This document shows, one piece after another, positions 44,478 through 59,609 of a stretch of DNA of 60,154 bases. Numbering within the stretch: the stretch's first letter is position 1; each line of letters opens with the position of its first letter. Position numbers and translations under genes: made by a program. The notes under the pieces are model-generated. The model was not told the origin of the DNA. It searched no databases and worked only from the letters and a program-made list of their open reading frames with translations. The DNA is from Pseudomonadales bacterium (GTDB lineage: Bacteria > Pseudomonadota > Gammaproteobacteria > Pseudomonadales > Azotimanducaceae), in the NCBI GenBank assembly GCA_007131295.1, contig SLQW01000094.1:1-60154 (forward strand), written 5' to 3'.

Positions 44478-45905
44478 ATGAAACGACATCTGATCCGCCC
44501 TGCCCTGATCCTCATCCTCGGCAACGGTATGTTCGCGCTGGCCGCCGCTGACGGCCTCGGCGAACCGCCCGCCGAGCCACCTGCAGCTGGGCCCTACACT
44601 CCGGTGACGGGACCCGACGGTGTTGCCGATGACGTCACCCTGGATCGCTCCGCTCTGGATCTGTTCTCCCTCGGAGACCGCGAGGGCGACAGCACTTCAG
44701 CGCTGTTCGCGCTGGCGCGGATCAAACAGGAGACCGGCGAGTACCTGGAGGCGCTGCAGACCTGGGAGGAAGCGCTCGATTTAGTCCGGGACCGCTACGG
44801 CCGCTGGGACCAGCGCAACGTGACTGCGCTCGCCGGAATGGGCGCCTCGTATCGCGGCCTCGACAGGTATCAGGAAGCGCTCGAGTTTTACGGCCAGGCT
44901 GTCTATATCAACCGCATGAACCAGGGACTGCATGATGCCAGCCAGCTGACCTACCTGGACCGGATCTCGGAGCTGCATGCCCTCAGAAACGAGTGGCAGG
45001 AAGCGACCCAGCTGCAGGAATACGCCTACTACGTTCATCAGCGCGACCATGGCGATGACACGCCTGAAATTCTGCCGGCAATCAACCGCCTGGCGGAGTG
45101 GTATCAGCGCACCGGCGCCCTCCTTAGCGCCCGCGGCCTCTACGAACGTGCGGTCAGCATCATCGAGGAACACTATGGCCCGGACGACATTCGCCTGGTC
45201 GAGCCTCTGCAGCGGCTGGCCATGACTTACCGCATGGAACGTTATCCGCCTGCGGCTGCGGCGCGTCGTGAGGAACCTAGCTTCAGGGTTTCCGCCGGTG
45301 GTCCCGGTCCGGAACGGGACCCGTTCGTGATGCACCAGCGTCAACCGCTCAATCCGTACGGCGTCGGCGAGCGCGCGCTCGTCCGCAGCGTGGAACTGCA
45401 GCTCGAGCATCCGGACATCGACCACTGGGAGCGCGCCGAGGCGTTGTTGGAACTGGGCGACTGGTACCTGCTGTTCGACAAGTGGAATCAGGCCATGAGG
45501 ACCTATGCCCGCGCGCGCGAAGTGCTGCGAGAAGCTGATGTGCCGGAAGAAGAGGTGACGGCAGTATTCGACGAGCCAGTGGCACTGGTCTTCCCGGTCC
45601 CGCCTGCGCCCTCACCGGCACCGTGGACAGAAGGTGTGCGCAGCCATGAAGGCTTCGTTTCCATGGTTTATGACGTCACCGACCGGGGCCGCCTGCGCAA
45701 CCTCGACATCACCGATGCAGAACCCGAGGGGTTGCTGGATTTCCGCTTGCGACGATCCGTACGCGCTGCCCGCTTCCGGCCACGCTTCGTCGACGACGCG
45801 CCCGTGGCTGCCGAAGGTGTGGCCTACCGACATCAATTCGTCTACTACACGCAGCCGCGGCAGGAGACGGCGAGACAGGAGCAGACCCTTCAGGAGGGCG
45901 GCTGA
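44478..45905 (+). CDS. Secreted TPR protein with C-terminal TonB-C-like domain
   Basis: A 475-residue protein: signal peptide (RPALILILGNGMFALAAADG), TPR repeats at roughly residues 60-260 (ALFALARIKQETGEYLEALQTWEEAL; YLDRISELHALRNEWQEATQLQEYA), another helix pair near 320-350, and a C-terminal ~85 residues (VYDVTDRGRLRNLDITDAEP, RAARFRPRFVDDAPV) resembling the TonB C-terminal fold. It probably works in the periplasm as a scaffold. It heads the 14-kb envelope cluster; a TTGACA at 44344 could be its promoter but the -10 is poor. Divergent from the TusA-like gene over 219 bases. Confidence 0.82.
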   Translation: MKRHLIRPALILILGNGMFALAAADGLGEPPAEPPAAGPYTPVTGPDGVADDVTLDRSALDLFSLGDREGDSTSALFALARIKQETGEYLEALQTWEEALDLVRDRYGRWDQRNVTALAGMGASYRGLDRYQEALEFYGQAVYINRMNQGLHDASQLTYLDRISELHALRNEWQEATQLQEYAYYVHQRDHGDDTPEILPAINRLAEWYQRTGALLSARGLYERAVSIIEEHYGPDDIRLVEPLQRLAMTYRMERYPPAAAARREEPSFRVSAGGPGPERDPFVMHQRQPLNPYGVGERALVRSVELQLEHPDIDHWERAEALLELGDWYLLFDKWNQAMRTYARAREVLREADVPEEEVTAVFDEPVALVFPVPPAPSPAPWTEGVRSHEGFVSMVYDVTDRGRLRNLDITDAEPEGLLDFRLRRSVRAARFRPRFVDDAPVAAEGVAYRHQFVYYTQPRQETARQEQTLQEGG

Positions 45906-46030
45906 GCACAGAGGCGGACTACATTCGCCAGGAACCTTGCAACGCGTAGCAGGGTCGAAGGCAGCAGCTTCGGCGTTCAGGGGTCATTCATGGCGTTCTG
46001 GCACCCTCCGAGGCAACTGAGGAGGTGATC

Positions 46031-47299
46031 ATGGGTATCCGCAGACCCACCATTCCTGCGTTGCTTCTGCTCCTGGGAGCGTTCGCGCTGGTCGGCTGCC
46101 AGAGTCAGTCCAGTCCATCTACGCCCTCACCGCCCATGCCCCCTAGCGCGCCCTCGCCCTCGAGCCCGTCGCCATCGCCACCGACCCCGCCTTCGGGCTC
46201 GCCCTCGCAGCCTTCGAGCCAGTCGCCCGCAGGGCCGCAGGCACCTCAGTCCGGGCAGCAGACACCCCAGCCGGGACAGCAACAGCCGGCCGGGGCGCCC
46301 TCGCCCGGCGGAGATACGTCCCCAAGCACAGGCTCGACCGATGCCGGCGCCGCCCCGGGCGACTCCGGCGCGGGAACGGCTGATTCCGACGCCGACGGTA
46401 GCGCCAGTGGAGACCAGGGTACGGCCGCAGGAGCCGGAGTCGACGATGACGGCGTCCTGGCCCAGGCGGTAGAAGTCTTTCGCCGCTCCGCGGCTCGCAG
46501 CCGCAGCGCAGAGGCACCCGCAGACGGAGACGAGGGCGTAGCAGGCGATACGGCCGACGCTCGCGCTCCCGGAAGCGCAGCAGGAGGTGCGGACGATGAT
46601 CTCGACGACCTTATAAGTGGCGAACTCGACGACTTGATCGCGGGAGGTGGCCAGACCGGTCGGGGTCGCGAGCCCGCGGAGGGTACGGAGGGCATGTCGG
46701 GTGACATGGACGGTGACGGCGCAGAAGCGGGTCCCTGGCATCAACCCGGTGCAGCAGGCCGCGGCCAGGATCCATCCCCTGAGGAGGTCTATGGTGACGC
46801 TTCCGGGTCTGGCGCCCAAAGCGGCGACGAGGGCGAGGCCGGCGGTACCCAGACCGCAGCCGAACGGCATGCGGAACTCGAGCGGGTGTTGGCGGAAGCC
46901 ATGGGCGATTTCGACGGTCGCATCCTCGATGAGCGTGCGGTGATCGTCGCCCGTCGCGGCAACGAACCAGGCACGATCGAGGGGGCTGGGCGTCAAGATG
47001 ACGGTGGCGCGGGCGCAGCAGACCAGCGCGGCGGGCGTGATACGGCCGGACGCCGTCCGGTTCCGCCACCGCCTGCACCCTCTGGTGAGGAGCGTCCCGA
47101 TGGCCAGACAGGTACCGCCGGCACTAGCGGTTCCGTGGGTGGCGGAGAGGTCCTGCCGGTCCCCGACGATGTCGGCGATGGTGCGGACGATGACGTCGTG
47201 GCACGCCAATTGCGTGAAGCCGCGATGGCGGAAACCGACCCCGAACTGCGCGAGAAGCTCTGGGACGAGTATCGGCGCTATGTGGCGGGACGCCGCTAA
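46031..47299 (+). CDS. Low-complexity lipoprotein of the envelope cluster
   Basis: A 422-residue lipoprotein (LLLLLGAFALVGCQSQ). After the anchor come about 70 residues made almost only of Pro, Ser, Gly and Gln, then long acidic Gly/Asp/Ala-rich stretches, and a conserved-looking tail (VVARQLREAAMAETDPELREKLWDEYRRYV). The layout suggests a flexible tether reaching from a membrane with a helical tail that binds a partner. GGAGGTGATC before the ATG is an unusually strong ribosome site. Family not recognised. Second gene of the cluster. Confidence 0.78.
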   Translation: MGIRRPTIPALLLLLGAFALVGCQSQSSPSTPSPPMPPSAPSPSSPSPSPPTPPSGSPSQPSSQSPAGPQAPQSGQQTPQPGQQQPAGAPSPGGDTSPSTGSTDAGAAPGDSGAGTADSDADGSASGDQGTAAGAGVDDDGVLAQAVEVFRRSAARSRSAEAPADGDEGVAGDTADARAPGSAAGGADDDLDDLISGELDDLIAGGGQTGRGREPAEGTEGMSGDMDGDGAEAGPWHQPGAAGRGQDPSPEEVYGDASGSGAQSGDEGEAGGTQTAAERHAELERVLAEAMGDFDGRILDERAVIVARRGNEPGTIEGAGRQDDGGAGAADQRGGRDTAGRRPVPPPPAPSGEERPDGQTGTAGTSGSVGGGEVLPVPDDVGDGADDDVVARQLREAAMAETDPELREKLWDEYRRYVAGRR

Positions 47300-47320
47300 C
47301 CCCAGTCAGGAGTGGTAACG

Positions 47321-48544
47321 ATGACCGGACGGCAGTTCGACTTCTGCAGTGGCTCCACCATCGGGCGTATCTGTGGCCTGCTGCTGGTCGCTGCAATCAT
47401 CAGTGGCTGCGTGTCCCAGACCGTCAAACGCGTGGACACGACACCGCCGCGCCAAGCCAGCGAACCGATTCCAGAGGAACTATTGCTGGATGTGGGCATT
47501 CAGCTGTTCGACCCCAATATTCCCGATGAGTGGCGTGAACGGGAGCGCGACGGGATCCTGCCCGAGGTTCGCAGGGCTGAAGCACGCTTCATGCCCTTTA
47601 TCTTGAAGGAAACGCTGGAGTCGACCGGCAATTGGGGCGCGGTGCGGGTGGTGCCACGTGAAACCCGGGCCGTGGACGTCACCGTCGACGCCAAGCTGCT
47701 CGAGTCCAACGGCGAGACGCTGCGCCTGCAGGTAGCGGTCGCAGACGCCAGCGGGCGACGCTGGTTCGATCGGGAGTATCGCTATCAGGCCAGCCGCTAC
47801 GCCTACGACGAAGCTGCACCAGCAGGCCTCGATCCTTTCCAGCAGCTTTACAACGAGATCGCCAACGACATGCTGGCCTATCGCGAGCGCCTGAGTGCAG
47901 CCGAGATTCGCCAGACCCGGGAAATCAGCCGGATGCGGTTCGCGCAGGAGTTTGCGCCGGAGGCGTTTGCTGACTATCTGCGGGAACGTAATGGCCGCTT
48001 CCAGCTCGTCCGGCTGCCCGCAGAGGGTGATCCCATGATGGCGCGCATCGGTCGGGTCCGCGATCGGGAGCACCTGTTCATCGACACGCTCGATGCCCAT
48101 TACGCACAATTTGCCGAGGAAATGGGTACGCCCTACACCGAGTATCGGCGCCATACATACAGCGAAGCCGTGGCACTGCGCGAAATGCGGGAGTCCGCTC
48201 GCAACCGTACCATCATGGGCGCGCTGGCCGTTGCCGGCGGCATTTACGCGGCGAGCCAGAGCGACAGCCCCTACGGTCGCGCTGCCGGTCAACTCGGTAT
48301 CATTGGCGGTGCCTACATGGTCCGCGACGGCCTTGCGCGCCGGCAGGAGGCGGAGCTGCACGCGTTGACGCTCAACGAGCTCGCCAATTCCCTTGAACAG
48401 GAGATCACGCCCAGCGTGATCGAACTCGATGATCGCACGATCACGCTCACCGGCACGGTGGACAACCAATACGATCAGTGGAAGGAGATCCTCGAGGAAC
48501 TCTACCGCTCGGATGTCGGCCTTCCCGCATCCAGCGACGGCTGA
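47321..48544 (+). CDS. Lipoprotein of unknown function in the envelope cluster
   Basis: A 407-residue lipoprotein (GLLLVAAIISGCVSQ). The first half is globular alpha/beta (WGAVRVVPRETRAVDVTVDAKLLESNGETLRLQVAVADASGRRWFDREYRYQAS). A glycine-rich hydrophobic stretch (NRTIMGALAVAGGIYAAS, GQLGIIGGAYMV) follows near residues 300-335, then a C-terminal unit IELDDRTITLTGTVDNQYDQWKEIL that recalls SH3 or BON-like strands. GGAG lies eight bases before the ATG. It starts 21 bases after the previous gene. I do not recognise the family. Confidence 0.78.
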   Translation: MTGRQFDFCSGSTIGRICGLLLVAAIISGCVSQTVKRVDTTPPRQASEPIPEELLLDVGIQLFDPNIPDEWRERERDGILPEVRRAEARFMPFILKETLESTGNWGAVRVVPRETRAVDVTVDAKLLESNGETLRLQVAVADASGRRWFDREYRYQASRYAYDEAAPAGLDPFQQLYNEIANDMLAYRERLSAAEIRQTREISRMRFAQEFAPEAFADYLRERNGRFQLVRLPAEGDPMMARIGRVRDREHLFIDTLDAHYAQFAEEMGTPYTEYRRHTYSEAVALREMRESARNRTIMGALAVAGGIYAASQSDSPYGRAAGQLGIIGGAYMVRDGLARRQEAELHALTLNELANSLEQEITPSVIELDDRTITLTGTVDNQYDQWKEILEELYRSDVGLPASSDG

Positions 48545-48644
48545 ACGCATGCTAATCAGGCCGCCCGGTTTGTGGCCGCGCGGACGTAAGGGGTGCATGC
48601 GGTGTAAGCTGCCGCTCCCTTTGGCCCGACTACGACGTCGCCCG

Positions 48645-48805
48645 GGAGCCTGTCGGACTCGGGCGATCGTAGCGCGCCGAGTAGTACGGCGAGGACAGAT
48701 TCCTTCGGTTTCGAGGCGCATAGTGGTGCCATGCAGGAGAAACCGGGCGAATATGAACCGCCGTCCCGCCGGCGCAGTAGATCAGCCCCAAGTCCGACAG
48801 GCTCC
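48645..48805 (+). repeat. 15-bp perfect inverted repeat bracketing the gap before the TPR membrane gene
   Basis: GGAGCCTGTCGGACT at 48645-48659 and AGTCCGACAGGCTCC at 48791-48805 are exact reverse complements, 131 bases apart, within the 270-base gap 48545-48814. The right arm ends nine bases before the next ATG, so pairing in mRNA could cover its ribosome site. No target-site duplication and no open frame are seen inside. It may be an RNA switch or a worn miniature element. Confidence 0.65.
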
Positions 48806-48814
48806 TGAAGCATC

Positions 48815-50380
48815 ATGACCGATCGCAAGACCGAAAAACCCGATGACGGCTTCGAGACCATTGCCCCGGCTGAGGTCGTGCTCACGCGCGAAGATCCTCA
48901 GGAAGCGCCCTCCCCGCTCGTCCGGCGGCGGCTACTGACCTGGGCGGGGGTGGTGGTGCTCGGTCTGCTGGTCGGTGGCCTCATTGCCGTGCTTCCCAGC
49001 GCCCTCAGGCCGGATCTCGAGAGCATCGCTGCAGGCAGCGAAGAACCTCCGGCCAGTGCACGCGAGCGCGACCGCAGCAGCGGCCCGGCGCAACGCGCCC
49101 GCGAAGAAGAAGATGAAGGCGAACCCGTGGCGCCCTACCAGCAGAGCCGTCTGGAGCGGGAACGCCGGGCAGTCGAAGATCTGATCACGCGCCTGCTCGA
49201 CCTGCAGGACGAACTCGAAGCCAAAGCGGTCGAACAGTGGGGCGTCGAAGAACTGGCTTCGGCCCAGATGCTCGCCGACGCAGGTGACGAGGCCTTCCTG
49301 GAGGAACAGTTCGACACGGCCCGAGACCGCTACGAGAGCGCCGTCGAGTCTCTCGAGACGCTCAGGGGCCAGGCCCAGGGGGCATACGAAGATGCGCTCG
49401 CCCGCGGCGGCCAAGCCATCGAGGATGGCGAGGCTACCCGAGCACGCGAGGCCTACACACTGGCGGCCGCCATCCGGCCCGACTCCGGCTCTGCCCAGTC
49501 CGGACTGGCGCGTGCGCAAGTGCTCGACGAAGTCCTCGCGAAGCTGCGTGAAGCCGAGCGTCGGATGGGCTCAGGCGAGCTCGAAGCCGCCAAGGCGGAT
49601 ATCGAGGCCGCTCTGGCGCTCGATCCGGACACCACCAGGGCACAGCAGGCACTGACCGAGGTTCGCGCCGCGATTCGGGCACGGGATTTCAATACGGCGC
49701 TGTCTCGCGGCTACGCCGCCCTCGCCGACAACCGCCTGGATGCCGCCCGTTCGGCCTTCCGGGACGCATTGAATCTGCGCTCGGATGCAAGTGAGGCCCG
49801 CGAGGGCCTGCAGCTCGTGGAGCAGGCCAGTACCGATCGTCGCATTGATGACCTGCGCCGGGAAGCAGAGCGGCTGCTCGCGGCAGAGAAGTGGTCGCAG
49901 GCCGCCGAGCGTTACGCCGAGGCGCTCGAACTCGATTCCACCCTGAGCTTCGCCCGCAGAGGCCGGAGCGAGGCCCTGCGTCTCGCCGACCTTGATGAGC
50001 GCCTACAGGAAACGCTAGAGCACCCCGACCGGCTCAGCGAGGACGTCGTACTCGCCCGCGCCAGGGAGCTGCTCGATCAAGGGCGCGCGGTCCCCGATCC
50101 GGCTCCAGGATTCGCGGCCCGCGTCAACGAACTCGACGAACTGCTGCAGATCGCGGCGGAGCCCGTCACCGTCCGCCTGCGCTCCGATGGCGCCACCGAG
50201 GTAACCATCCTGCGTGTGGCGCGTCTGGGCAGCTTCGAGGAGCGCAGCATCGAATTGCGGCCGGGGCTGTACACCGCCACCGGCAGCCGGCCCGGCTTCC
50301 GCGATGTTCGACTCGAATTCCGCGTCGCTGCGGACGGATCCGGCAATCCGGTCGTGATCCGTACCGAAGAGCGCATCTGA
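48815..50380 (+). CDS. Inner-membrane TPR protein with PEGA-like C-terminus
   Basis: A 521-residue protein. A cytosolic N-tail of ~40 residues is followed by one membrane helix (LLTWAGVVVLGLLVGGLIAVL, residues 40-60), an acidic coiled-coil linker, TPR-like helices up to ~430 (AYTLAAAIRPDSGSAQSGLARAQ; AAKADIEAALALDPDTTRAQQAL; ERYAEALELDSTLSFARRGRSEAL), and a C-terminal beta domain (ERSIELRPGLYTATGSRPGFRDVRLEFRV) like a PEGA repeat. The bulk should face the periplasm. It ends two bases before the next gene. Start lacks a clear ribosome site and may be controlled by the inverted repeat upstream. Confidence 0.82.
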   Translation: MTDRKTEKPDDGFETIAPAEVVLTREDPQEAPSPLVRRRLLTWAGVVVLGLLVGGLIAVLPSALRPDLESIAAGSEEPPASARERDRSSGPAQRAREEEDEGEPVAPYQQSRLERERRAVEDLITRLLDLQDELEAKAVEQWGVEELASAQMLADAGDEAFLEEQFDTARDRYESAVESLETLRGQAQGAYEDALARGGQAIEDGEATRAREAYTLAAAIRPDSGSAQSGLARAQVLDEVLAKLREAERRMGSGELEAAKADIEAALALDPDTTRAQQALTEVRAAIRARDFNTALSRGYAALADNRLDAARSAFRDALNLRSDASEAREGLQLVEQASTDRRIDDLRREAERLLAAEKWSQAAERYAEALELDSTLSFARRGRSEALRLADLDERLQETLEHPDRLSEDVVLARARELLDQGRAVPDPAPGFAARVNELDELLQIAAEPVTVRLRSDGATEVTILRVARLGSFEERSIELRPGLYTATGSRPGFRDVRLEFRVAADGSGNPVVIRTEERI

Positions 50381-50381
50381 A

Positions 50382-52457
50382 GTGAACGATGGCCGCACCG
50401 GGACGCAACCGGACGAGGAATTCATCGAACCGGTCGAGTTCCGACCCTCGGATCCCGGCGAATGGCGCCCCCCTACCCGCCTGCGCCCCACTACCATCGT
50501 CACGATCGCGGTGCTTGCCGCCCTCGCATTCGTGGCCCTTTTTCTGATCACGGCTCGCCCGGTCCTGCTCGAGTTCACGCCGGATGCGGAGAACGTCAGC
50601 GTCGGCGGCGGCATCTCTTTGCCAGTGGGCGAACGCCGTCTGATGCGTCCTGGCACGTTCCGCGTGCAGGCGGAACGCGAGGGCTACCACCCGATCGACG
50701 ATACGTTCAGCGTCGCGCGCGGCGAGGACACCGAGTTCGTTTTCGAGTTCCGACCACTGCCAGGTATCGTCGAAGTCGTGACCGAACCCGTTGCTGACGC
50801 CCGGGTGCTGGTGGACGGAGCCGATGTCGGCATGACGCCCCTGCGCGAGTTGGAGCTCGAACCCGGCAGCTACCTGATCGAACTGCATGCCGAACGCTAT
50901 CTGCCAAAGCAGATCGAATTCGAGGTAGAAGGCCGCGGCGTCGCGCAACGGATCGAGGCCGAGCTCGCACCTGCCTGGGCGGAACTGCATCTCGAGACGG
51001 AGCCTGCCGGAGCCGAAATCAGCCTCGAGGACGGCACCGTGATCGGCACGACCCCGGCCACCTTCGAGCTGCTCCAGGGCGCACACACGCTCACTGCCAA
51101 ACTCGAAGGCTACAAGGCATGGCAACAGCAAACTGAGGTCGTTGCAGGCGAGGATCAGGAGCTCGATCCGGTCCGACTCGAACGCGCCGATGGTCTGCTC
51201 ATGGTGAGTTCAAGGCCCTCAGGCGCCACCGTCACCATCGATGGGACTTTCCACGGACGCACACCGGTGGAAGTGCAGCTGCGCCCCGGAAGAGAGTACC
51301 AGGTCGACCTGTTCCGCCCAGGCTACAGTCGGGTCCGGCGTCAAGTCGGCATCGTCTCCGGGGAGGAACAGCGTTTGAGCATCGACCTCCCTGCCGAGCT
51401 CGGCGAAGTGCGCATCGCCGTCGCGCCTGACGATGCTCGCGTGCTGGTGGACGGCCGCGACGCAGGCAGAGCGGATCAGACCCTGTCGCTTCCAGCCGTC
51501 GCCCACCAGATCGAGATCCGCAAGGACGGCTATGTGCCCTATCGGACGAGCGTCACACCTCGCCCGGGATTTCCACAGGAGATCAGCCTTAACCTGCAGA
51601 CTGTCGAGGAGGCCCGCCGCGCCGCGATCCGCCCCGTGATCACCAATCCGGTGGATCAGGAAATGCGTCTGCTCCGTCCCGGCGCATTCACCATGGGTGC
51701 CTCGCGGCGCGAGCCCGGACGGCGCGCCAACGAGGTGCTGCGCGAGGTGACCTTGACGCGGCCGTTTTACCTCTCCGTAACCGAGGTGACCAACGCTCAA
51801 TACCGCCAATTCAGGGAACGCCATAACTCGGGCGAGTGGGAGGGCCACAGTCTCAATGGCGATCGCCAGCCGGTTGTGAACGTCACCTGGGAGGAGGCGG
51901 CACTGTTCTGCAACTGGCTGTCGGAGCAGGAGGGCCTGCCGAAAGCTTATCTGGTACGTGGCAACCGGGTGGTCGGCTTCGACCCGGAGGCCACGGGCTA
52001 CCGCCTGGCTACGGAAGCTGAGTGGGAATGGGCGGCGCGGGTTAAGGATGACGGCAGCCAGCTCCGTTTCCCCTGGGGCAATGACATGCCGCCACCCGAT
52101 CGCGTCGGCAACTACGCCGACCGTTCCATTGCCAACCTTCTTGGCCGGACCCTGATCGGCTACACGGATGGCGCCATCGTCTCAGCCCCCGTCGCCAACT
52201 ATGAACCCAATCACCGGGGCATCTACGATCTCGGCAGCAACGTGGCAGAATGGGTGAACGACTTTTACGCGGGTACCAGCGAAGATCTGCCGTCGGATGT
52301 CGTAGATCCCCTGGGCCCCGACGGTGGCGATTACCATGTCATTCGGGGCGCCAGCTGGATGCATGGCACCATCACCGAGCTGCGGCTGACCTTCCGGGAC
52401 TTCGGTCGCGACGGTCGCAACGACGTCGGTTTCCGTATCGCCCGCTTCCTGGAGTAA
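50382..52457 (+). CDS. Membrane protein with PEGA repeats and SUMF1/FGE-like domain
   Basis: A 691-residue protein: cytosolic tail, one membrane helix at 37-58, then four to five PEGA repeats starting near residues 128, 200, 270 and 340 (each about 60 residues, e.g. PAGAEISLEDGTVIGTTPATFEL), and a SUMF1 domain from ~420 to the end (MGASRREPGRRANEV, FYLSVTEVTNAQYRQF, YRLATEAEWEWAAR, GSNVAEWVNDFY, RGASWMHG). The active-site cysteines of formylglycine-generating enzyme are not seen, and only one Cys occurs in the domain, so it may be a binding module. GTG start. It lies two bases after and two bases before its neighbours. Confidence 0.88.
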   Translation: MNDGRTGTQPDEEFIEPVEFRPSDPGEWRPPTRLRPTTIVTIAVLAALAFVALFLITARPVLLEFTPDAENVSVGGGISLPVGERRLMRPGTFRVQAEREGYHPIDDTFSVARGEDTEFVFEFRPLPGIVEVVTEPVADARVLVDGADVGMTPLRELELEPGSYLIELHAERYLPKQIEFEVEGRGVAQRIEAELAPAWAELHLETEPAGAEISLEDGTVIGTTPATFELLQGAHTLTAKLEGYKAWQQQTEVVAGEDQELDPVRLERADGLLMVSSRPSGATVTIDGTFHGRTPVEVQLRPGREYQVDLFRPGYSRVRRQVGIVSGEEQRLSIDLPAELGEVRIAVAPDDARVLVDGRDAGRADQTLSLPAVAHQIEIRKDGYVPYRTSVTPRPGFPQEISLNLQTVEEARRAAIRPVITNPVDQEMRLLRPGAFTMGASRREPGRRANEVLREVTLTRPFYLSVTEVTNAQYRQFRERHNSGEWEGHSLNGDRQPVVNVTWEEAALFCNWLSEQEGLPKAYLVRGNRVVGFDPEATGYRLATEAEWEWAARVKDDGSQLRFPWGNDMPPPDRVGNYADRSIANLLGRTLIGYTDGAIVSAPVANYEPNHRGIYDLGSNVAEWVNDFYAGTSEDLPSDVVDPLGPDGGDYHVIRGASWMHGTITELRLTFRDFGRDGRNDVGFRIARFLE

Positions 52458-52459
52458 TC

Positions 52460-53854
52460 GTGGCCCTGTATGTGATCGAGCTCTGCGACGCCGGCGTCCG
52501 GCTCGGGGGACAAGACGGGCACATTGCCGAGAGCCCCGGCTATGCCCTCGTCCAGGGTGATCGGGTCCTTCTCGGCGTGCAGGCCCGCAACGAGTCGCGT
52601 CTGCATCCACGACATGCCCATACCCACTTCTGGAGCCGCCTTTCCACGGAGGCCCTGCCGCAGCCGGGCCCCCGTGCGCGCACGGTGGCCGACCTTGCCT
52701 ACGCGCATCTACTCGATCTCTGGAGCCAGGCGATCGCAGCCGGTGACGAGGGGGACAGTGAGGTCGTGTTCGCGGTTCCCGGCCAATACGACCGGAACCA
52801 GCTCGCTTTGCTGCTCGGCATCGCGCGCGAGTGCCCCTTCCGGGCCGTGGGGCTCGTGGATCTTGGTGTCGCCGCGGTTGCAGCGGATGGCAGCCCGGCA
52901 GGCAACGTGGTGTACGCGTCAGGCCATCTGCACCGGACCGTGATCACACGCATGACAGCAGCTGGGGAACTCATTCGGGAGCGTGTCGACGACACCGCAG
53001 CCACTGCCCTGCTGGGCCTGCAGGACACGATGGTCGGCCTGATCGCAGACGCCTTCATCCGCGAAACGCGCTTCGACCCCCTGCATGAAGCCGGCACGGA
53101 GCAGCGGCTCTACGACAGCCTGCCGGGCTGGCTGGAGAAACTCGAACGCGCCGGTGAGGCCATCCTGGAACTTGATACCGGTCGCAGCAGTTATCGGGTC
53201 AGCCTGCATCAGGACCGGCTCGTCGAACGCCTGCACCCACGCTACGAGCAACTGGCGGAACGGCTACGCGCCCTCGCCGGGATGGGCTCCGAGGTCCGGC
53301 TGGACGCTCGTCTGGCCGCCCTGCCCGGCCTCGTGCCTACCCTGCAGCAGCTGCTCGACGGGCAGACCGTGCGGGTCGTTGCGAACGATGCGGTGCGGCT
53401 TGCCGTCTTTGCTCATCTGCATCACGTGAGGCGCGACGGTGAGCGTCTTGCATTCGTGACGCGGCTGCCGAACCGCACCCCGACGCCTACCGAAGCGGTC
53501 ACGCCAGAACCCGCAGCAGCAAGCCAGGCGCGGGAACCAGCGGCCGAGCCCAAGGTGACGCCGAACCGTCCGACGCACCTGTTGCTCGGCCACGAGGCAT
53601 GGCCTCTCGCTGCGACCCCGATGCGCATCGGTGGCCCACCTGGTACGGATGTCCTGCCGCTCACCGATGCGGCGGAACCGGTCTGCACAATCCGGGTCCA
53701 ACAGGATGGAGTGCGACTCGACCCAGAGCTTGATGCTGTGGTGGTCCGCGATGGTGTTCCGGTGCAGCAGGCTGTACATCTGGCCCCCGGCGAAGAAGTC
53801 CTGATCGGCGAGGGCATCCGCCTGATGGCGATCGTGGTCCGCGACAGTGCCTGA
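52460..53854 (+). CDS. Actin/Hsp70-like protein with FHA-like C-terminus
   Basis: A 464-residue soluble protein. The N-terminal ~370 residues resemble an actin/Hsp70-fold ATPase (ALYVIELCDAGVRLGGQDG; VVFAVPGQYDRNQLALLLGIA; AVGLVDLGVAAVAADG), although the phosphate loops are not canonical, so ATP binding is uncertain. After an Ala/Pro-rich linker, residues ~375-460 (MRIGGPPGTDVLPLTDAAEPVCTIRVQQDGVRL, APGEEVLIGEGIRL) look like an FHA-type beta sandwich. No signal or membrane helix, so it is the cytosolic member of the cluster. GTG start with GGAG seven bases upstream, two bases after the PEGA-SUMF1 stop. Confidence 0.68.
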   Translation: MALYVIELCDAGVRLGGQDGHIAESPGYALVQGDRVLLGVQARNESRLHPRHAHTHFWSRLSTEALPQPGPRARTVADLAYAHLLDLWSQAIAAGDEGDSEVVFAVPGQYDRNQLALLLGIARECPFRAVGLVDLGVAAVAADGSPAGNVVYASGHLHRTVITRMTAAGELIRERVDDTAATALLGLQDTMVGLIADAFIRETRFDPLHEAGTEQRLYDSLPGWLEKLERAGEAILELDTGRSSYRVSLHQDRLVERLHPRYEQLAERLRALAGMGSEVRLDARLAALPGLVPTLQQLLDGQTVRVVANDAVRLAVFAHLHHVRRDGERLAFVTRLPNRTPTPTEAVTPEPAAASQAREPAAEPKVTPNRPTHLLLGHEAWPLAATPMRIGGPPGTDVLPLTDAAEPVCTIRVQQDGVRLDPELDAVVVRDGVPVQQAVHLAPGEEVLIGEGIRLMAIVVRDSA

Positions 53855-53963
53855 GGATTTCGGCACACGCCGGTGCCCATTGGGCGCAAGCGGGTGAAGT
53901 GGTAGATTCGGCGAGAACGCCGGTCGCCGACATGCAGGGGACGACGCTCCCAGAGGAATCAGC

Positions 53964-54650
53964 ATGCAGTATCGGGTTGCTGCCACTGCGGCACAGACCG
54001 CACGCGAGGGGGTTCCCGGACCCGTCGCCGTCGTCGGTCTCGCCGTGGCACTCCTGCTCGGAGGCTGCGGAACCACCGCCGTCGACGTCACCAGCGATCG
54101 CTTCCCCGCCCCGGTAGTCGAAACCATGCCGCTGCACCTCGGTGTTCACTATACCGAGGCGTTCAGTGGCTTCCGGCTCGAGGAGTCCGTCCCGCAGCGC
54201 GGCGACTGGGCCATCGATATCGGCCGGGCGCAAGTCAACATGCTCAACGCCGTGCTGCCGGGCATGTTCGAACGGGTGGTCGTACTCGACAGTCTCGAAC
54301 CGGAAGCGATTCCGAGCAGCCTGCACGCCGTCCTCGTGCCCGAAGTCAAGGAAATGCAGTTCGCCATCCCGTTCCAGACCCGGAGCAACTTCTTCGAAGT
54401 CTGGATCCGTTACGAAATGCAGCTGCTCGACCCACTCGGCGAGGAAATCGCCAGCTGGCCCGTTACGGCCTACGGCAAGACCCGCAGTCTGATGCTCGAA
54501 ACCGCCGAAGCTGCCGTGCGGGATGCAGCCGTCAATGCGCTGCGCGATGCCGGTGCCTTCCTCGCCATCGGGTTTCCGCGTCAGGAAGAACTTCGGCCCT
54601 GGCTCGAGCGGCAGCTTGCCGCGCTCAATCCGCGCCTTGAAGGAGAATGA
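53964..54650 (+). CDS. Lipoprotein of unknown function in the envelope cluster
   Basis: A 228-residue lipoprotein with a long N-region and a lipobox VALLLGGCGTT. The body is alpha/beta (PLHLGVHYTEAFSGF; WAIDIGRAQVNMLNAVLPGMFERVVVL; NFFEVWIRYEMQLLDPLGEEIASWPVTAYG), resembling the fold of small secreted proteins that assemble next to the outer membrane, but no family is certain. GAGGAATC precedes the ATG. It directly precedes another lipoprotein with a three-base spacing. Confidence 0.78.
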   Translation: MQYRVAATAAQTAREGVPGPVAVVGLAVALLLGGCGTTAVDVTSDRFPAPVVETMPLHLGVHYTEAFSGFRLEESVPQRGDWAIDIGRAQVNMLNAVLPGMFERVVVLDSLEPEAIPSSLHAVLVPEVKEMQFAIPFQTRSNFFEVWIRYEMQLLDPLGEEIASWPVTAYGKTRSLMLETAEAAVRDAAVNALRDAGAFLAIGFPRQEELRPWLERQLAALNPRLEGE

Positions 54651-54652
54651 TG

Positions 54653-55306
54653 ATGTTCAAGGCCTTCTGCGTACCCATTACCCTCATCCTGCTCGCAGGC
54701 TGCGTCAGCTCCACGGTAGAGGAAGTGCGTTCCGGCGCGACCGGCGTGCGCGATCATGATCAGATCGTCGTGCTCGGCCGTCGTCACAACAACGGCTACG
54801 AGACCGAACCCGACTTCGTCGCCTGCGTCGGCAACAATCTTGCGCGCGGTCGCGACGGCATCTCCGTACTGCCGGAACGGGAGTTCGTCGACACGCTCTT
54901 CCCCTGGTTCGAGCCGCGCACTGCGCCGATCGAGATCCGTGATCTACCCAACCTCATGTCCAACCGTCTGGTGGCCGAGCGGCTGCAGGAAGCTGGGGTG
55001 CGCTATCTGGTCTGGCTTGACGGCTCCACCAGCACGAACGACACGTCCGGGTCCATGACCTGCGCGGTGTCTCCCACCGGCGGCGGCTGTTTCGGGTTCG
55101 TGACCTGGGACCGGGATTCCGCCTACGAGGCCTCCATCTGGGACCTCGAGACCATGAGCAACGTCGGCAAGATTTCCACCGACGCATCGGGTACATCCTA
55201 CATGCCTGCTGTGATCGTTCCCGTGCCGTTGATTGCCCGGGTGCAGTCATCTGCATGCAGCGGCATGGCGAATCAGCTCAAGGCATTCCTGCACGCCAGC
55301 AACTGA
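54653..55306 (+). CDS. Second lipoprotein of unknown function in the envelope cluster
   Basis: A 217-residue lipoprotein (MFKAFCVPITLILLAGCVSS). The body (DHDQIVVLGRRHNNGYETEPDFVACVGNNL; LQEAGVRYLVWLDGSTSTNDTSGSMTCAVSPTGGGCFGFVTWD) contains several cysteines that could form disulfides in the periplasm. Three consecutive ATG codons occur at the start; the last, at 54653, is best spaced from AGGAG. Family not recognised. Confidence 0.78.
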   Translation: MFKAFCVPITLILLAGCVSSTVEEVRSGATGVRDHDQIVVLGRRHNNGYETEPDFVACVGNNLARGRDGISVLPEREFVDTLFPWFEPRTAPIEIRDLPNLMSNRLVAERLQEAGVRYLVWLDGSTSTNDTSGSMTCAVSPTGGGCFGFVTWDRDSAYEASIWDLETMSNVGKISTDASGTSYMPAVIVPVPLIARVQSSACSGMANQLKAFLHASN

Positions 55307-55376
55307 GCGGTTTCAGCTCCGGTTAAGCGTGCCCTCTGCATGGTCTTCGAGACGACCAGACGTCGGAGATGCGTCC

Positions 55377-55607
55377 ATGCGTAGCCTTACCACGGTGGCG
55401 CTGACCGCCCTGCTGCTGCAGCTTCCCGTATCTTTTGCGGAAGAGACCGAATCCCAACAGGACGACTCCGACCCGGCCCCGGTCGCAGTCTTGCCCGATG
55501 AAGACATGGAGTCGGCAGCTGACGCTTCTGCAAGCGGTGACGATCGCTTCCTGCCCACGGATCGGATTCGCTATGACCAGGAAGTGGATTTTCCAACCGA
55601 CATTTGA
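55377..55607 (+). CDS. Small acidic secreted protein
   Basis: A 76-residue protein with a signal peptide (LTTVALTALLLQLPVSFAEE) and an acidic, disordered mature part of about 55 residues (ESQQDDSDPAPVAVLPDEDMESAADASASG) ending in RFLPTDRIRYDQEVDFPTDI. GGAG lies nine bases upstream. It sits 30 bases before the ExbB-like gene and may be a regulator or plug of that channel. Confidence 0.72.
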   Translation: MRSLTTVALTALLLQLPVSFAEETESQQDDSDPAPVAVLPDEDMESAADASASGDDRFLPTDRIRYDQEVDFPTDI

Positions 55608-55637
55608 GCTCCAGCGCGTGCAAAAGCAAGGATCCGC

Positions 55638-56435
55638 ATGAAGCAGAATTTCCCCACTGAATTCGTCTTTCAGGTCGCGTCACTGATCCTCATCGTGATC
55701 GTCGTCCAGATCCTCTACGCCGGCCACATTCGACCCACAGCGTTCGAAATCCTCGAGGCGCAGGAAATCCGCCTGGGCGCGGACCCCTATTACGTACCGG
55801 AACGCTCCGTGTACGTTCTGGTGCGCGACTTCGAACAGCAGGTGTGTTTCATCCTGATGCTGTGGGCGTTCGCGATCATGGGGTACAAGGCATTCAGGTC
55901 GATGCGCGAGCGCAGCCTGCTCGAGCGCGATCTGGTCAACGTTCCCGAGGGCTTACGGATACTCCCCGAGGACACCCGTGACTACGCCCGCAACGTTCAG
56001 GCTCTGCCTGCGAAGGAACGTCGCATGCTCCTCCCCCGAGCACTGCTTGCGGCCCTGGAGCGCTTCGGCTCCACCCGTAACGTCCAGGATGTGTCGGCGG
56101 CCTCGCGGGATCTGTGCCACGGGGAAGCGGATCTGCTGGAATCCGAGCTTTCCATGATCCGCTACATCGCCTGGGCGATCCCGTCGGTGGGCTTCATCGG
56201 TACGGTGCGCGGCATCGGGGAGGCGCTCGGCCAGGCACACCGCGCGGTGGAAGGAGACATCACCGGTGTGACCACGTCCCTTGGCGTCGCGTTCAACTCC
56301 ACCTTCATCGCTCTGCTGATCAGTATCGTCGTCATGTTCCTGGTGCATCAGCTGCAGCAACTGCAGGAACGCCTTGTCTTCGACACCGAGACCTACGTCG
56401 ACCACAACCTGATCCGCCACATGAAGTCCGACTGA
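55638..56435 (+). CDS. MotA/TolQ/ExbB-type proton channel protein
   Basis: A 265-residue membrane protein. Helices are seen near residues 11-29, 72-90, 178-198 and 215-235. The core signature is WAIPSVGFIGTVRGIGEALGQA and GVTTSLGVAFNSTFIALLISIVVMFL, matching the ExbB/TolQ motif with the conserved GTV and TT. It should form an ion-conducting pentamer that drives the neighbouring ExbD-like proteins. It has an extended periplasmic loop near residues 30-70, unlike short ExbB. Starts 30 bases after the small acidic gene. Confidence 0.9.
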   Translation: MKQNFPTEFVFQVASLILIVIVVQILYAGHIRPTAFEILEAQEIRLGADPYYVPERSVYVLVRDFEQQVCFILMLWAFAIMGYKAFRSMRERSLLERDLVNVPEGLRILPEDTRDYARNVQALPAKERRMLLPRALLAALERFGSTRNVQDVSAASRDLCHGEADLLESELSMIRYIAWAIPSVGFIGTVRGIGEALGQAHRAVEGDITGVTTSLGVAFNSTFIALLISIVVMFLVHQLQQLQERLVFDTETYVDHNLIRHMKSD

Positions 56436-56457
56436 GCGCGCCAGATCGGATACGCCC

Positions 56458-57558
56458 ATGGCCCGTCGTCAGCGTCAGTTCAACGTCTTCAGCCTGTCGT
56501 TCCTCGACATCATGAGCTGTGGCTTCGGCGCGGTAATTCTTTTCTTCATGATCATCAGCGCCCAGATCGCCGTCGAGACCCAGGACACGGTGCGCGAAGA
56601 TAGCGCTGAGATCGAACGTCTCGAAGCTCGCGTGGCCTCTAGCGATCGCCATCTGCAACGCCTCCGAGACGCGCTCGCTGGTGCCATCGAGCAGCGTGCC
56701 GGAAGCCGAGCCGAGGCTGAAGAGCTGAGCGCTGCGGTGGAAGATGCCCGCGCCCGCATGAGCGAGCAGGAAAGAACCGAAATCGAACGCCGTGAAGAAC
56801 TGCAGCGGCTGCAGGCGGAACTGCGCGAGCTGCAGGAGGAAGCCCAGCGACTCGCCGAGGAGGCCATGACCCGCGAAGAGGCCGGCCGGCAGATTCGTGC
56901 TCTGCAAGGTGATGGCGATCGTGCCTACCTCACCGGCATGCGCATGGGTGGCGACCGGGTGCTGATCCTCGTCGACGTCTCCACCAGCATGCTCGATGAA
57001 ACACTGGTGAACGTGATCCGCCGCCGCAACATGCCTTTCGAGCGCAAGGTCGCATCGCGCAAGTGGCAGCGGGTGCTCGCCACCATAGACTGGATCACGG
57101 CCCAGATTCCGCCCACCAGTCAGTTTCAGGTTTACCTGTTCAACGACGAGGTCCGACCCCTCATCGAGGGCACGGAAGGCACCTGGCTCTCCGCGTCAGA
57201 TGCAGCGGGCCGCCTCGACGAAGCCATGACGAAGGCCCGTGAGCTCGATCCCGGAGGCGGCAGCAGCCTGCATGCGGCATTCGGCGTGATTCGCGACCTG
57301 TCGCCACGCGCCGACAACGTCTACCTCATCACCGACAGTCTGCCGACGGTGGGCGACAGTCCACCCACGCGCAGCCTCATCTCCGGTCGGGAGCGCGTGC
57401 GTCTGTTCGAGCTCGCCGTGCGCACGCTGCCCACCAACGTGCCACTCAACATCATCCTCTTTCCACTCGAGGGCGATCCACGTGCAGCACCGGCTTATTG
57501 GGATCTCACGCTGCGCACGGGCGGTACGTTCCTGAGCCCGACCGAGGACTGGCCATGA
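56458..57558 (+). CDS. ExbD-like membrane protein with coiled coil and von Willebrand A domain (first)
   Basis: A 366-residue protein. One N-terminal helix, SLSFLDIMSCGFGAVILFFMII, keeps an Asp17 in a FxD(I/V)M context like the proton-carrying helix of ExbD. A ~110-residue coiled coil (residues ~45-150) leads to a VWA domain starting ILVDVSTSM (Asp173, Ser175, Ser177 of the MIDAS metal site), with GGGSSLHAAF and VYLITDSLP. The VWA domain should lie in the periplasm. It overlaps the next, paralogous gene by four bases and follows the channel gene by 22. Confidence 0.9.
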   Translation: MARRQRQFNVFSLSFLDIMSCGFGAVILFFMIISAQIAVETQDTVREDSAEIERLEARVASSDRHLQRLRDALAGAIEQRAGSRAEAEELSAAVEDARARMSEQERTEIERREELQRLQAELRELQEEAQRLAEEAMTREEAGRQIRALQGDGDRAYLTGMRMGGDRVLILVDVSTSMLDETLVNVIRRRNMPFERKVASRKWQRVLATIDWITAQIPPTSQFQVYLFNDEVRPLIEGTEGTWLSASDAAGRLDEAMTKARELDPGGGSSLHAAFGVIRDLSPRADNVYLITDSLPTVGDSPPTRSLISGRERVRLFELAVRTLPTNVPLNIILFPLEGDPRAAPAYWDLTLRTGGTFLSPTEDWP

Positions 57559-58562
57559 GACGTCGCCGCCGCGATTCCGACACCCTGAGCCTGTCTTTCC
57601 TCGACGCAATCTCCTGCGGCTTCGGGGCAATCATCCTGCTGCTGGTCATCGTCAAGATCTACGAGCCGCAGCTCCGAGCCGACGCCATCGATGACACCGA
57701 AGCTCGGCTCGCCTATCTCGAGCAGCGCCTCGCGGACATCCAGGACGATACGCGCATGACGTCTGATCGGATCTCCACCACGGAAGCGGATCTCGCCCGC
57801 GAACGGGAGCGGCTCGATCGTCTGCGCCGGGAGCTCGCGCGCCTGGAGAGTGCAGCCGACGGTTCGCGCACCGATACGCAGGTCATGGCACAACTGGAAG
57901 AACGCCTGCAGCGCGCCAAGCAACAGCTGTCCGAGGAGATGCAACGACTGCTTGCGGACTTCCGCCCGGTACACATGGACCAGGCCGTCGGCGGCATTCC
58001 GATCGATGCGGAATGGGTCGTGTTCGTGATCGACACTTCACCCAGCATGACCAATTACACCTGGCCGCGGATGATCCAGATTATGGAGGAGATTCTCGAC
58101 GTCTATCCTGAGGTCAAGGGCATGCAGGTCCTCAACGACATGGGTACGCACCTCTTCCGCGGCCGTCAGGGCGAATGGATCGAGGACACGCCTGCCTTCC
58201 GTCGCTCGGTCATTCAGCGGCTGCAGACCTGGCGCCCGTTCTCCAATTCGAGCCCGGTCGAAGGGCTGATGGAAGCAGTCCGACTCTACGGCCGGAACAA
58301 CGACAACGTCAGCATCTATTTCCTCGGTGACGAGATGCATGGCCATGACCTGCACGGTGCGGCCGAGCGGGTGAGGATCGCAAATCAGCGTCCCGACGGC
58401 GGCGTTTGGGCGCGGATCCACTCGGTGGGCTTCCCCGTCATCTTCGACTACACCGGCGCGGTACAGGAAACCGGTCTGCGCTTCGCCGTGCTCATGCGCA
58501 TCATCTGCGAACAGAACCAGGGAACCTTCGTCGCCTTGCACAGCGGCAGAAATCGGCGCTGA
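57555..58562 (+). CDS. ExbD-like membrane protein with coiled coil and von Willebrand A domain (second)
   Basis: A 335-residue paralogue of the preceding protein: helix TLSLSFLDAISCGFGAIILLLVIV with Asp17 again, coiled coil (residues ~45-130, ARLAYLEQRLADIQDDTR; ERERLDRLRRELARLESA), and a VWA domain VVFVIDTSPSM (Asp160), SIYFLGDEMHG. The conserved Asp and S/S positions suggest a bound metal ion. The two VWA proteins probably form a heterodimer plugged into the channel pentamer. ATGA overlap with the first. Confidence 0.9.
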   Translation: MRRRRRDSDTLSLSFLDAISCGFGAIILLLVIVKIYEPQLRADAIDDTEARLAYLEQRLADIQDDTRMTSDRISTTEADLARERERLDRLRRELARLESAADGSRTDTQVMAQLEERLQRAKQQLSEEMQRLLADFRPVHMDQAVGGIPIDAEWVVFVIDTSPSMTNYTWPRMIQIMEEILDVYPEVKGMQVLNDMGTHLFRGRQGEWIEDTPAFRRSVIQRLQTWRPFSNSSPVEGLMEAVRLYGRNNDNVSIYFLGDEMHGHDLHGAAERVRIANQRPDGGVWARIHSVGFPVIFDYTGAVQETGLRFAVLMRIICEQNQGTFVALHSGRNRR

Positions 58563-58922: not shown

Positions 58923-59609
58923 ATGCAGAAGTACGCTTTCACCACCCTGTTCACCCTCGATGTCGCGGCCGCGGCCGTCCCGGCGTGGTCCTCAGGCGGG
59001 CATTATCCCGTCGACGACGCCGAGCTCGCCGAGCCCGGTGTGCTGCAGATCGAGACGTGGTACACCCGCGTCGACGGCAGCGCATGGGAATTGGTCATCC
59101 TTCCCGCCATCACGCTTCAAAGCCTCCCTCTGGAGCTGACCGCAGGCTATGCGCGCATCAAGGACGACGATGAGCGCTTCCACCGCTTCGAACCGAGTGC
59201 CAAGTGGCAGTTCAGCGCTGTCGACGCCGGCCAGCTCGGCGCCGCGATCTCGCTGACGGCGGGCCACGAGGACGGCCGTTTCAGCGACTGGCTCTTGAAC
59301 GTTCCGCTCACCTACCAGCTCGAAGGCGCGCCAGTGACGCTGCTCGCCAATGCCGGCTGGCTGCGGGAGCGGGACGAAGGCTGGAACGACCGGCTGTTCA
59401 TCGGCGGCGGCTTCGAGTGGGAAACCGGCCCCCACGCCACCGTGATCGGGCAGGTCTACCGCGAAGGCTCCGCCGTGAAGCCGGAAGCCCAGCTCGGCCT
59501 GCGCTTCGCCGGCCGGGCCGCCGTGGAATTCATCGACGTCGCCGTGGGCCGCGAACTCGGCGGCGACATCGACTGGTTCTTCACCTTCGGCCTCACGCTG
59601 GAACTCTGA
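58923..59609 (+). CDS. Predicted outer-membrane beta-barrel protein
   Basis: A 228-residue protein with a signal-like N-terminus (YAFTTLFTLDVAAAAVPAWSSGG) and about ten alternating hydrophobic/polar strands (LQIETWYTRVDGSAWELVILPAITL; LELTAGYARI; AAISLTAGHEDGRF; ATVIGQVYREG; PEAQLGLRFAGRAAVEFIDVAVG), closing with IDWFFTFGLTLEL, a typical terminal strand. The family is not recognised. GGAGGTCGTC precedes the ATG. It is followed by the magnesium transporter 31 bases later. Confidence 0.75.
   Translation: MQKYAFTTLFTLDVAAAAVPAWSSGGHYPVDDAELAEPGVLQIETWYTRVDGSAWELVILPAITLQSLPLELTAGYARIKDDDERFHRFEPSAKWQFSAVDAGQLGAAISLTAGHEDGRFSDWLLNVPLTYQLEGAPVTLLANAGWLRERDEGWNDRLFIGGGFEWETGPHATVIGQVYREGSAVKPEAQLGLRFAGRAAVEFIDVAVGRELGGDIDWFFTFGLTLEL

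Follow-up and report, generated by a model that had tools for sequence, protein, structure and literature searches.

Do twelve neighbouring genes of a Pseudomonadales bacterium encode the parts of one machine, or do they stand side by side by chance? The genes, numbered g01 to g12, run consecutively on the plus strand at positions 44478-58562 of a 60,154-nucleotide stretch (contig SLQW01000094.1, positions 1 to 60,154), which as a whole is called the window below. A first-pass annotation, made from the letters alone, had read them as an ion-driven apparatus spanning the envelope. Few ion-driven trans-envelope motors are known, and this cassette joins motor genes to a eukaryote-like kinase, FHA and phosphatase set and to an Hsp70-fold protein. 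We find that the grouping goes far beyond chance and represents a real conserved system. That it codes for a single trans-envelope machine, with an ExbB/MotA-class motor as its power source and with phospho-control in many relatives, we regard as moderately probable.

To follow the cassette through other genomes, we ran one profile per gene over 100 loci and the window (101 sources in all). A scan of named genomes returned at least 579 stretches encoding a relative, from which we retained the 80 best loci; their titles named Woeseiaceae, Pseudomonadales, Cellvibrionales, Arenicellales, Lysobacterales, Porticoccus and Exilibacterium, with a few other labels that are possibly misbinned. One cassette, L102, sits on a contig of Exilibacterium tricleocarpae R142, a cultured organism. 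The usual gene order over the 100 loci and the window was 2-3-4-5-9-10-6-11-12, with g01, g07 and g08 placed before or after in some lineages; the window itself is rearranged, g06, g07 and g08 lying between g05 and g09. Seven genes, g02-g05 and g10-g12, form the core, g06 and g09 are frequent, and g01, g07 and g08 are accessory (26/101 sources each). All seven core genes lay on one strand, with centres no more than 9.5 kb from g10, in 40 of the 44 named loci whose flanks reached 7.9 kb or more ahead of g10 and 3.6 kb or more behind it. Among loci sampled from the class, 9/12 had the whole core on one strand near g10, the exceptions being L034 (genome G213), L037, in which g02 was not matched, and the cousin locus L042.

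Co-occurrence gave the same picture. At an expectation value (E) of 1e-10, g10 was matched in 25 of 274 genomes of the class, comprising five weaker cousins and 20 strong matches ('strong' meaning E 4e-48 or better, a cut set post hoc). A strong g10 came together with g03 in 18 genomes, two had only g10, one had only g03 and 253 had neither; thus g03 was found in 18/20 genomes with a strong g10 vs 1/254 of the others (Fisher p 5e-25, kinship ignored). The single genome with g03 only, G185, carries an eroded cassette (L175:6373-9305, contig G185:C1) whose remains are a fragment of g02 plus g03 and g04, each spread over two reading frames; neither g10 nor g12 was matched in this genome at E 1e-10. 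The cassette genes recur together and, in one genome, decay together. One of the g04 pieces starts, by appearance, like a nearby transposase-looking frame.

The recurrence extends beyond the class. In a phylum-wide sample 15/299 genomes were matched; a single family from another class accounts for 13 of these, and all five loci fetched from this family carry 2-3-4-5-10-11-12 in that order; g01, g06, g07, g08 and g09 had no match in these five loci at the threshold used. The cassette is widespread in Gammaproteobacteria, present in at least one other class, and built largely from protein families that Pfam does not name. The first-pass annotation had suggested looking for the same order in distant lineages, and a similar order was indeed found there (40/44 named loci, 5/5 other-class loci). 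It had also conceded that neighbours not conserved together would mean a chance neighbourhood of unrelated envelope genes. Nothing beyond the presence of common domains speaks for that reading; synteny and co-occurrence rule it out, and we give it next to no credence. Two further cassettes, L083 and L120, sit on contigs titled Thermoanaerobaculia and Acidobacteria, with g10 proteins 65% and 62% identical to that of the window, reflecting either a binning error or transfer. The window's own genome holds a second g03-like lipoprotein gene (L174:4545-5744, contig G000:C94), and no other cassette gene was recognised across 12 kb there.

What kind of machine might these genes encode? The predicted motor lies in g10-g12. 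All twelve proteins were scanned with Pfam and ten of them with NCBIfam, and g10 matched MotA_ExbB (PF01618) at E 3.7e-13, with 49.8 bits vs a gathering score of 22.9. Conserved motifs mark its last two membrane helices. Residues P182, G185, G188, T189, T212 and T222 each show at least 97% conservation across 100 aligned sequences and, in an alignment judged by eye, sit as in the genome's own ExbB/TolQ-like paralogues. Hydropathy gave membrane segments at 9-27, 68-86 and 217-235; the motif IPSVGFIGTVRGIG marks a putative further segment near 177-195, under our threshold, which would give g10 four membrane segments as in MotA, not three as in ExbB. In a tree of channel paralogues the cassette and cousin sequences stand apart from the genome's other paralogues, a result of low weight given long branches and several fragmentary rows, four f192/cousin rows among them. 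A sequence search of solved structures with the g10 alignment returned nothing useful.

The putative axles, g11 and g12, had been described as two ExbD-like VWA proteins. The VWA part of that description holds, with VWA_2 at 2.3e-6 in g11, barely above cut-off, and VWA models at about 0.003 in g12, under cut-off; both domains keep the DxSxS metal-binding residues and a later Asp. The membrane helices, FSLSFLDIMSCGFGAVILFFMII in g11 and LSLSFLDAISCGFGAIILLLVIV in g12, align by eye with ExbD/TolR-type helices of the same genome, e.g. INLTPMLDVVFIMLIFFIV. Asp D17 of this helix is near-invariant (at least 97% of 85 g11 and 79 g12 sequences); it occupies the ExbD/TolR position and is predicted to bind the ion. 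ExbD membership by family model was tried and rejected, the likeness being confined to this one helix motif. A search of solved structures with the g11 alignment returned mostly coiled coils.

These features invite comparison with Tol-Pal and ExbBD-TonB, which share with the cassette the PF01618 channel, one-helix axles with a conserved Asp and a TolB-N-like domain, here in g03. The cassette differs in that its axles carry VWA domains without PF02472, and in its partners, which are SUMF1/PEGA, TPR (often kinase) and Hsp70-fold proteins. One could accordingly picture a variant of Tol-Pal whose task is to draw in the outer membrane during division or to transport lipids, with g10 as TolQ, g11/g12 as TolR, g03 as TolB-like, g01 as the TPR/TonB-C component and a neighbouring OmpA protein as Pal. 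An OmpA-family gene, a likeness to Tol-Pal seen in some relatives, occurs in 30/101 sources, mostly right after g12, and g01 has TPRs and a weak TonB_C end; the window cluster has no OmpA-family gene by that profile, and, the sub-threshold TonB_C of g01 aside, none of its twelve proteins had a TolA, TolB-propeller or Pal match in Pfam. The genome also has nine MotA_ExbB matches including g10 and six ExbD matches above cut-off, so that, going by these counts, ordinary systems are probably present. On balance we consider a Tol-Pal-like variant unlikely.

The periplasmic part of the predicted machine would rest on g03, g04 and g05. As annotated, g05 is a PEGA-SUMF1 membrane protein (PEGA 4e-53, FGE-sulfatase 1e-39 in Pfam), with a membrane segment at 38-56 and no lipobox. 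Its best NCBIfam match was GldK (TIGR03525; 5e-34, 118 bits vs a 350-bit cut-off), and it also stayed below the GldJ cut-off. Among 79 sequences only alignment column 510 exceeded 20% Cys, with none in the last 62 residues, the region in which we take the catalytic Cys pair of FGE to lie. With no conserved pair, an enzymatic role of g05 is unlikely. PorK similarly has an FGE fold without both cysteines and serves as a docking hub in a ring (PMC12421860).

The structural model of g03 (predicted local distance difference test, pLDDT, 84) has a domain at about 50-196, followed by long helices and a small end domain. Foldseek placed the domain weakly with TolB and LptE. VIA-align, run on Foldseek's own candidates, gave Z 13.1 with FlgT (132 residues, 3.5 A), 12.4 with DUF330, 12.0 with TolB, 11.8 with PelC (112 residues, 2.3 A), 11.0 with PqiC, 10.3 with CsgG and 8.5 with TraT, against a background in which unrelated-looking prolyl-tRNA synthetases reached Z 8.9. 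Several lipoproteins of this fold form rings at the outer membrane, and structure entry titles name a PelC dodecamer, an LPHT ring and a decameric TraT. The model thus suggests that g03 shares its fold with ring-forming outer-membrane lipoproteins. Searches of solved structures with the g03, g07 and g08 alignments returned nothing useful, and Pfam scans of their relatives gave only noise for g03 and g07 and no match for g08.

The four annotated lipoproteins were borne out by lipobox-like motifs in g02, g03, g07 and g08, and with the same pattern and start codons of our choosing the motif recurred in relatives of each (g02 38/60, g03 47/66, g07 18/25, g08 24/25). The conserved C-terminal segment of g02 includes DDDIVARQLREAA. 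The annotation's TPR/TonB-C-like reading of g01 is supported in its TPR half (TPR_12 3e-23), TonB_C scoring 0.0018, under cut-off; its membrane TPR protein, g04, does have a membrane segment, and the TPRs are weak and under cut-off in the window copy. The small g09 is present in 93/101 sources, and all 93 frames end in an FPx[DN]I-type motif (in seven of them W, Y, M or L stands in place of F, and in two F in place of the final I). This motif has the look of a docking tail.

A scaffold of this type recalls the type IX secretion system (T9SS) and Bacteroidota gliding (PorKLMN, GldKLMN), in which lipoproteins and a SUMF1/FGE-fold protein lacking the cysteine pair likewise accompany a proton-motive-force motor. 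In the cassette, however, the SUMF1 protein is membrane-anchored, carries PEGA repeats and has no lipobox, whereas PorK/GldK is an outer-membrane lipoprotein; no PorN, PorM or Sov model was among the NCBIfam matches of the ten scanned proteins. Myxococcus Agl-Glt combines one TolQ-type gene with two PF02472 axle genes, TPR proteins and a cytosolic FHA module (PMC3169522). Compared by domain lists only, the cassette resembles it in the one TolQ-type and two axle genes, the TPR proteins and FHA; it differs in its axles, those of Agl-Glt being of the PF02472 family, and the terms VWA and SUMF1 are absent from the text of PMC3169522. A surface-motility or secretion motor of either kind, with the lipoproteins as track or ring, would account for this shared gene content and for the SUMF1 fold common to PorK/GldK (PMC12421860). 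Yet no barrel, translocon or adhesin was seen by eye in the 14 largest flank families, a search that was not exhaustive, and the GldK and GldJ cut-offs of NCBIfam were not reached, which makes such a motor, in our view, distinctly unlikely.

The strongest new point of the analysis is the link between a kinase and an FHA domain. A Ser/Thr kinase family adjoins the cassettes, and 38 of 76 g04 frames have it as an N-terminal fusion, so that one protein unites a kinase domain with a membrane segment and TPRs; in some of these the catalytic loop is degenerate. A further 21 kinase matches are separate genes. Those located before g02 or after g12 are accompanied by a PP2C gene, whereas those between g03 and g04 are not. 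The presumed reader of the kinase's target is g06, which had been annotated as actin/Hsp70-FHA-like. Its fold prediction agrees with the first part: the model (pLDDT 89.6) retrieved nearly only Hsp70s and their complexes among the top 50 Foldseek rows (E 8e-17 to 2e-14), and one of 28 relatives matches Pfam HSP70 (6e-4). We conclude that g06 has a predicted Hsp70/actin fold. Of ATP-binding phosphate loops, no GGGT-like one was seen by eye in alignment A2. The FHA part applies to relatives, 18/30 of which have a C-terminal FHA domain (PF00498) at E 0.1, with matches to solved FHA chains at E down to 4e-6; the window g06 has no PF00498 match.

We then divided the full-length g06 proteins by the presence of a kinase catalytic-loop motif in the locus, excluding fifteen loci with g06 and a cut or missing g04. 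L049, L050 and L054 were scored as kinase-bearing on this motif though the DFG pattern was not found. Pfam recognised FHA at E 0.001 in 33/33 proteins with the kinase motif and in 2/28 without it, the window being among the 28 (Fisher p 3e-15, kinship ignored); a home-made FHA profile gave 32/33 and 3/28, the three being L031, L093 and L101. L031 has a plausible kinase (HLDLTPGN and DFG) outside the active-kinase pattern and was recoded by eye in one of two codings. On a g10+g11 tree with L031 recoded, the kinase state changed at least six times and the FHA state eight times, and five independent pairs differing in kinase were on average 4.0 FHA-concordant, none opposite (sign-test p 0.06-0.5); with no recoding, 3.1 of four pairs were concordant (p 0.125-1). 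The window groups on this tree with L046 and L048, both kinase-bearing, which suggests that its lineage probably lost the kinase and FHA. On another contig of the window's genome, genes for a CHASE2 Ser/Thr kinase, PP2C and FHA stand in a row (L150:7279-11326, contig G000:C144), and the one PF13672 (PP2C) match of the genome is the gene beside this CHASE2 kinase and FHA protein.

Kinase, phosphatase and FHA follow the same logic in the threonine-phosphorylation pathway of the type VI secretion system (PpkA-PppA-Fha); PppA is presumably a PP2C phosphatase. The cassette relatives differ in their fusion partners, which are periplasmic TPRs for the kinase and an Hsp70 fold for FHA. Similar associations exist in distant g10 relatives. 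L042:8395-17949 has FHA, PP2C, two trypsin-FHA genes, VWA genes and a kinase-PEGA gene, L043:5659-11567 has PP2C, trypsin-FHA and VWA genes, and L045 has FHA genes; thus the link between an ExbB-type channel and phospho-signalling is wider than the cassette. Such gene sets, in one case with a kinase, together with the receptor-kinase architecture of g04 and the FHA of g06 in relatives, would also fit a sensor without a motor, having a vestigial or regulatory channel and periplasmic TPR, VWA and SUMF1 proteins that report the state of the envelope to the kinase/FHA relay. The motor genes are nevertheless kept in lineages without kinase and FHA, and the channel residues are conserved across the whole set of 100, so that a pure sensor appears very unlikely.

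We therefore return to the reading of the cassette as one ion-driven machine, whose motor action, contacts and role we infer as follows. A g10 pentamer would surround a g11/g12 dimer, and ion flow past T189, T222 and D17 would turn or tilt that dimer. Binding in a metal-dependent way, the VWA heads may then work on the scaffold of g05 and g04 and, by way of it, on a ring of outer-membrane lipoproteins, in the manner proposed for PorLM and PorKN. Where g04 carries a fused kinase, as in many relatives, that kinase would report the periplasmic state and phosphorylate a target recognised by the g06 FHA end, and the PP2C phosphatase would reset the relay, so that activity is gated. The first-pass annotation had cast the actin-like protein as the inner controller; in many relatives that part seems to fall to a Ser/Thr phosphorylation relay (g04 kinase, g06 FHA, and PP2C near some cassettes) and not to this protein alone. 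Our best guess is that the task is transport or maintenance at the outer membrane, which we rank ahead of motility.

Several observations weigh against this reading or narrow it. In L064, L070, L071 and L072 an insert of 4-8 kb separates g05/g09 from g10, with g11 present and no separate g12 match (L064 and L071 were read directly), and in G213 g02, g04-g06, g11 and g12 lie on another contig than g10 (L034), with g03 not found. Because of these five cases, neither the g11/g12 pair nor the gene linkage is universal. PF02472 matched g11 and g12 neither in the protein scan nor at their place in the genome search. The structural match of g03 covers one domain only, and Foldseek alone reached 1.4e-3 at best. 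L093 has FHA without an active kinase, and the kinase-FHA link represents few independent events on a tree with long branches, with too few pairs for significance. Finally, the other-class family has no recognisable g06; therefore, phospho-control is not essential.

Is this, then, a known motor? The annotation's remark that no named system has this set agrees with our literature search: no paper naming or describing the cassette was found in the open PubMed Central (PMC) literature, a scope that excludes bioRxiv and most subscription journals, so a prior description is possible. The word VWA is absent from the accessible text of two motor-class papers (PMC9389320, PMC12505986). Also compared was Zorya. 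ZorAB is a MotA-class channel with an axle, and the cassette differs from it by the NCBIfam ZorA model, which scored E 0.047 and 12.6 bits vs a cut-off of 500. As a variant of the known ion-driven envelope motors, the system has a fair chance of being a class of its own. More tentatively, and with considerable doubt about the full picture, it could be a further motor class, apart from Tol, Ton, flagellar stators, Agl-Glt, T9SS and Zorya, in which a VWA axle pair, driven by an ExbB-type ring, works against a scaffold of SUMF1/PEGA type and a ring of outer-membrane lipoproteins. Gating would be by a TPR receptor kinase, an FHA-tailed Hsp70-like clutch and PP2C; g09 would dock via its FPx[DN]I-type peptide, and the phospho-clutch would be dispensable, its parts having disappeared together on more than one occasion, with the window genome as one instance. 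If true, the cassette makes the idea of a phospho-gated envelope motor testable, and lineages without both kinase and FHA would be a natural experiment on the function of the gate.

The layout of the cluster, as annotated, proved to be twelve consecutive reading frames, some overlapping, with distances from g01 to g12 of 125, 21, 270, 1, 2, 109, -4, 70, 30, 22 and -4 bases; start codons are those picked by us. Localisation was assigned from a lipobox-like pattern and hydropathy segments, which gave one N-terminal membrane segment each in g04, g05, g11 and g12; a pattern match inside the g12 helix was discounted. For g02, g03 and g06-g09 the family scans gave no credible match.

Table 1. Genes of the cassette in the window, with coordinates, predicted products and status across loci.
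Gene	Coordinates	Strand	Predicted product	Status	Remark
g01	44478..45905	+	Secreted TPR protein, weak TonB-C-like end	Accessory	TPR_12 3e-23
g02	46031..47299	+	Low-complexity lipoprotein, lipobox LVGC, conserved C-terminal segment	Core	
g03	47321..48544	+	Lipoprotein, lipobox ISGC, domain ~50-196 of predicted TolB-N/PelC/FlgT/CsgG fold	Core	
g04	48815..50380	+	Inner-membrane protein, periplasmic TPRs	Core	N-terminal Ser/Thr kinase absent in window copy
g05	50382..52457	+	Inner-membrane-anchored PEGA repeats and SUMF1/FGE domain without conserved Cys pair	Core	
g06	52460..53854	+	Cytosolic protein of predicted Hsp70/actin fold	Frequent, not universal	FHA unrecognised in window copy
g07	53964..54650	+	Lipoprotein, lipobox LGGC	Accessory	
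g08	54647..55306	+	Lipoprotein, lipobox LAGC, conserved cysteines	Accessory	
g09	55377..55607	+	Small acidic secreted protein, C-terminus FPTDI		
g10	55638..56435	+	ExbB/TolQ/MotA-type ion-channel subunit	Core	
g11	56458..57558	+	Membrane helix with FLD motif, coiled coil, periplasmic VWA domain	Core	
g12	57555..58562	+	Paralogue of g11, same plan	Core	

A promoter scan of the cluster was at chance level and a terminator scan under chance level. Upstream lie genes for TusA, a gamma-glutamylcyclotransferase-like protein and EpmC; the cluster was taken to begin at g01 because these neighbours are on the opposite strand. Downstream, 360 bases separate the end of g12 from the next listed frame. 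The frame at 58923-59609, downstream of the cluster, had no Pfam match and has a relative in one other locus, L048.

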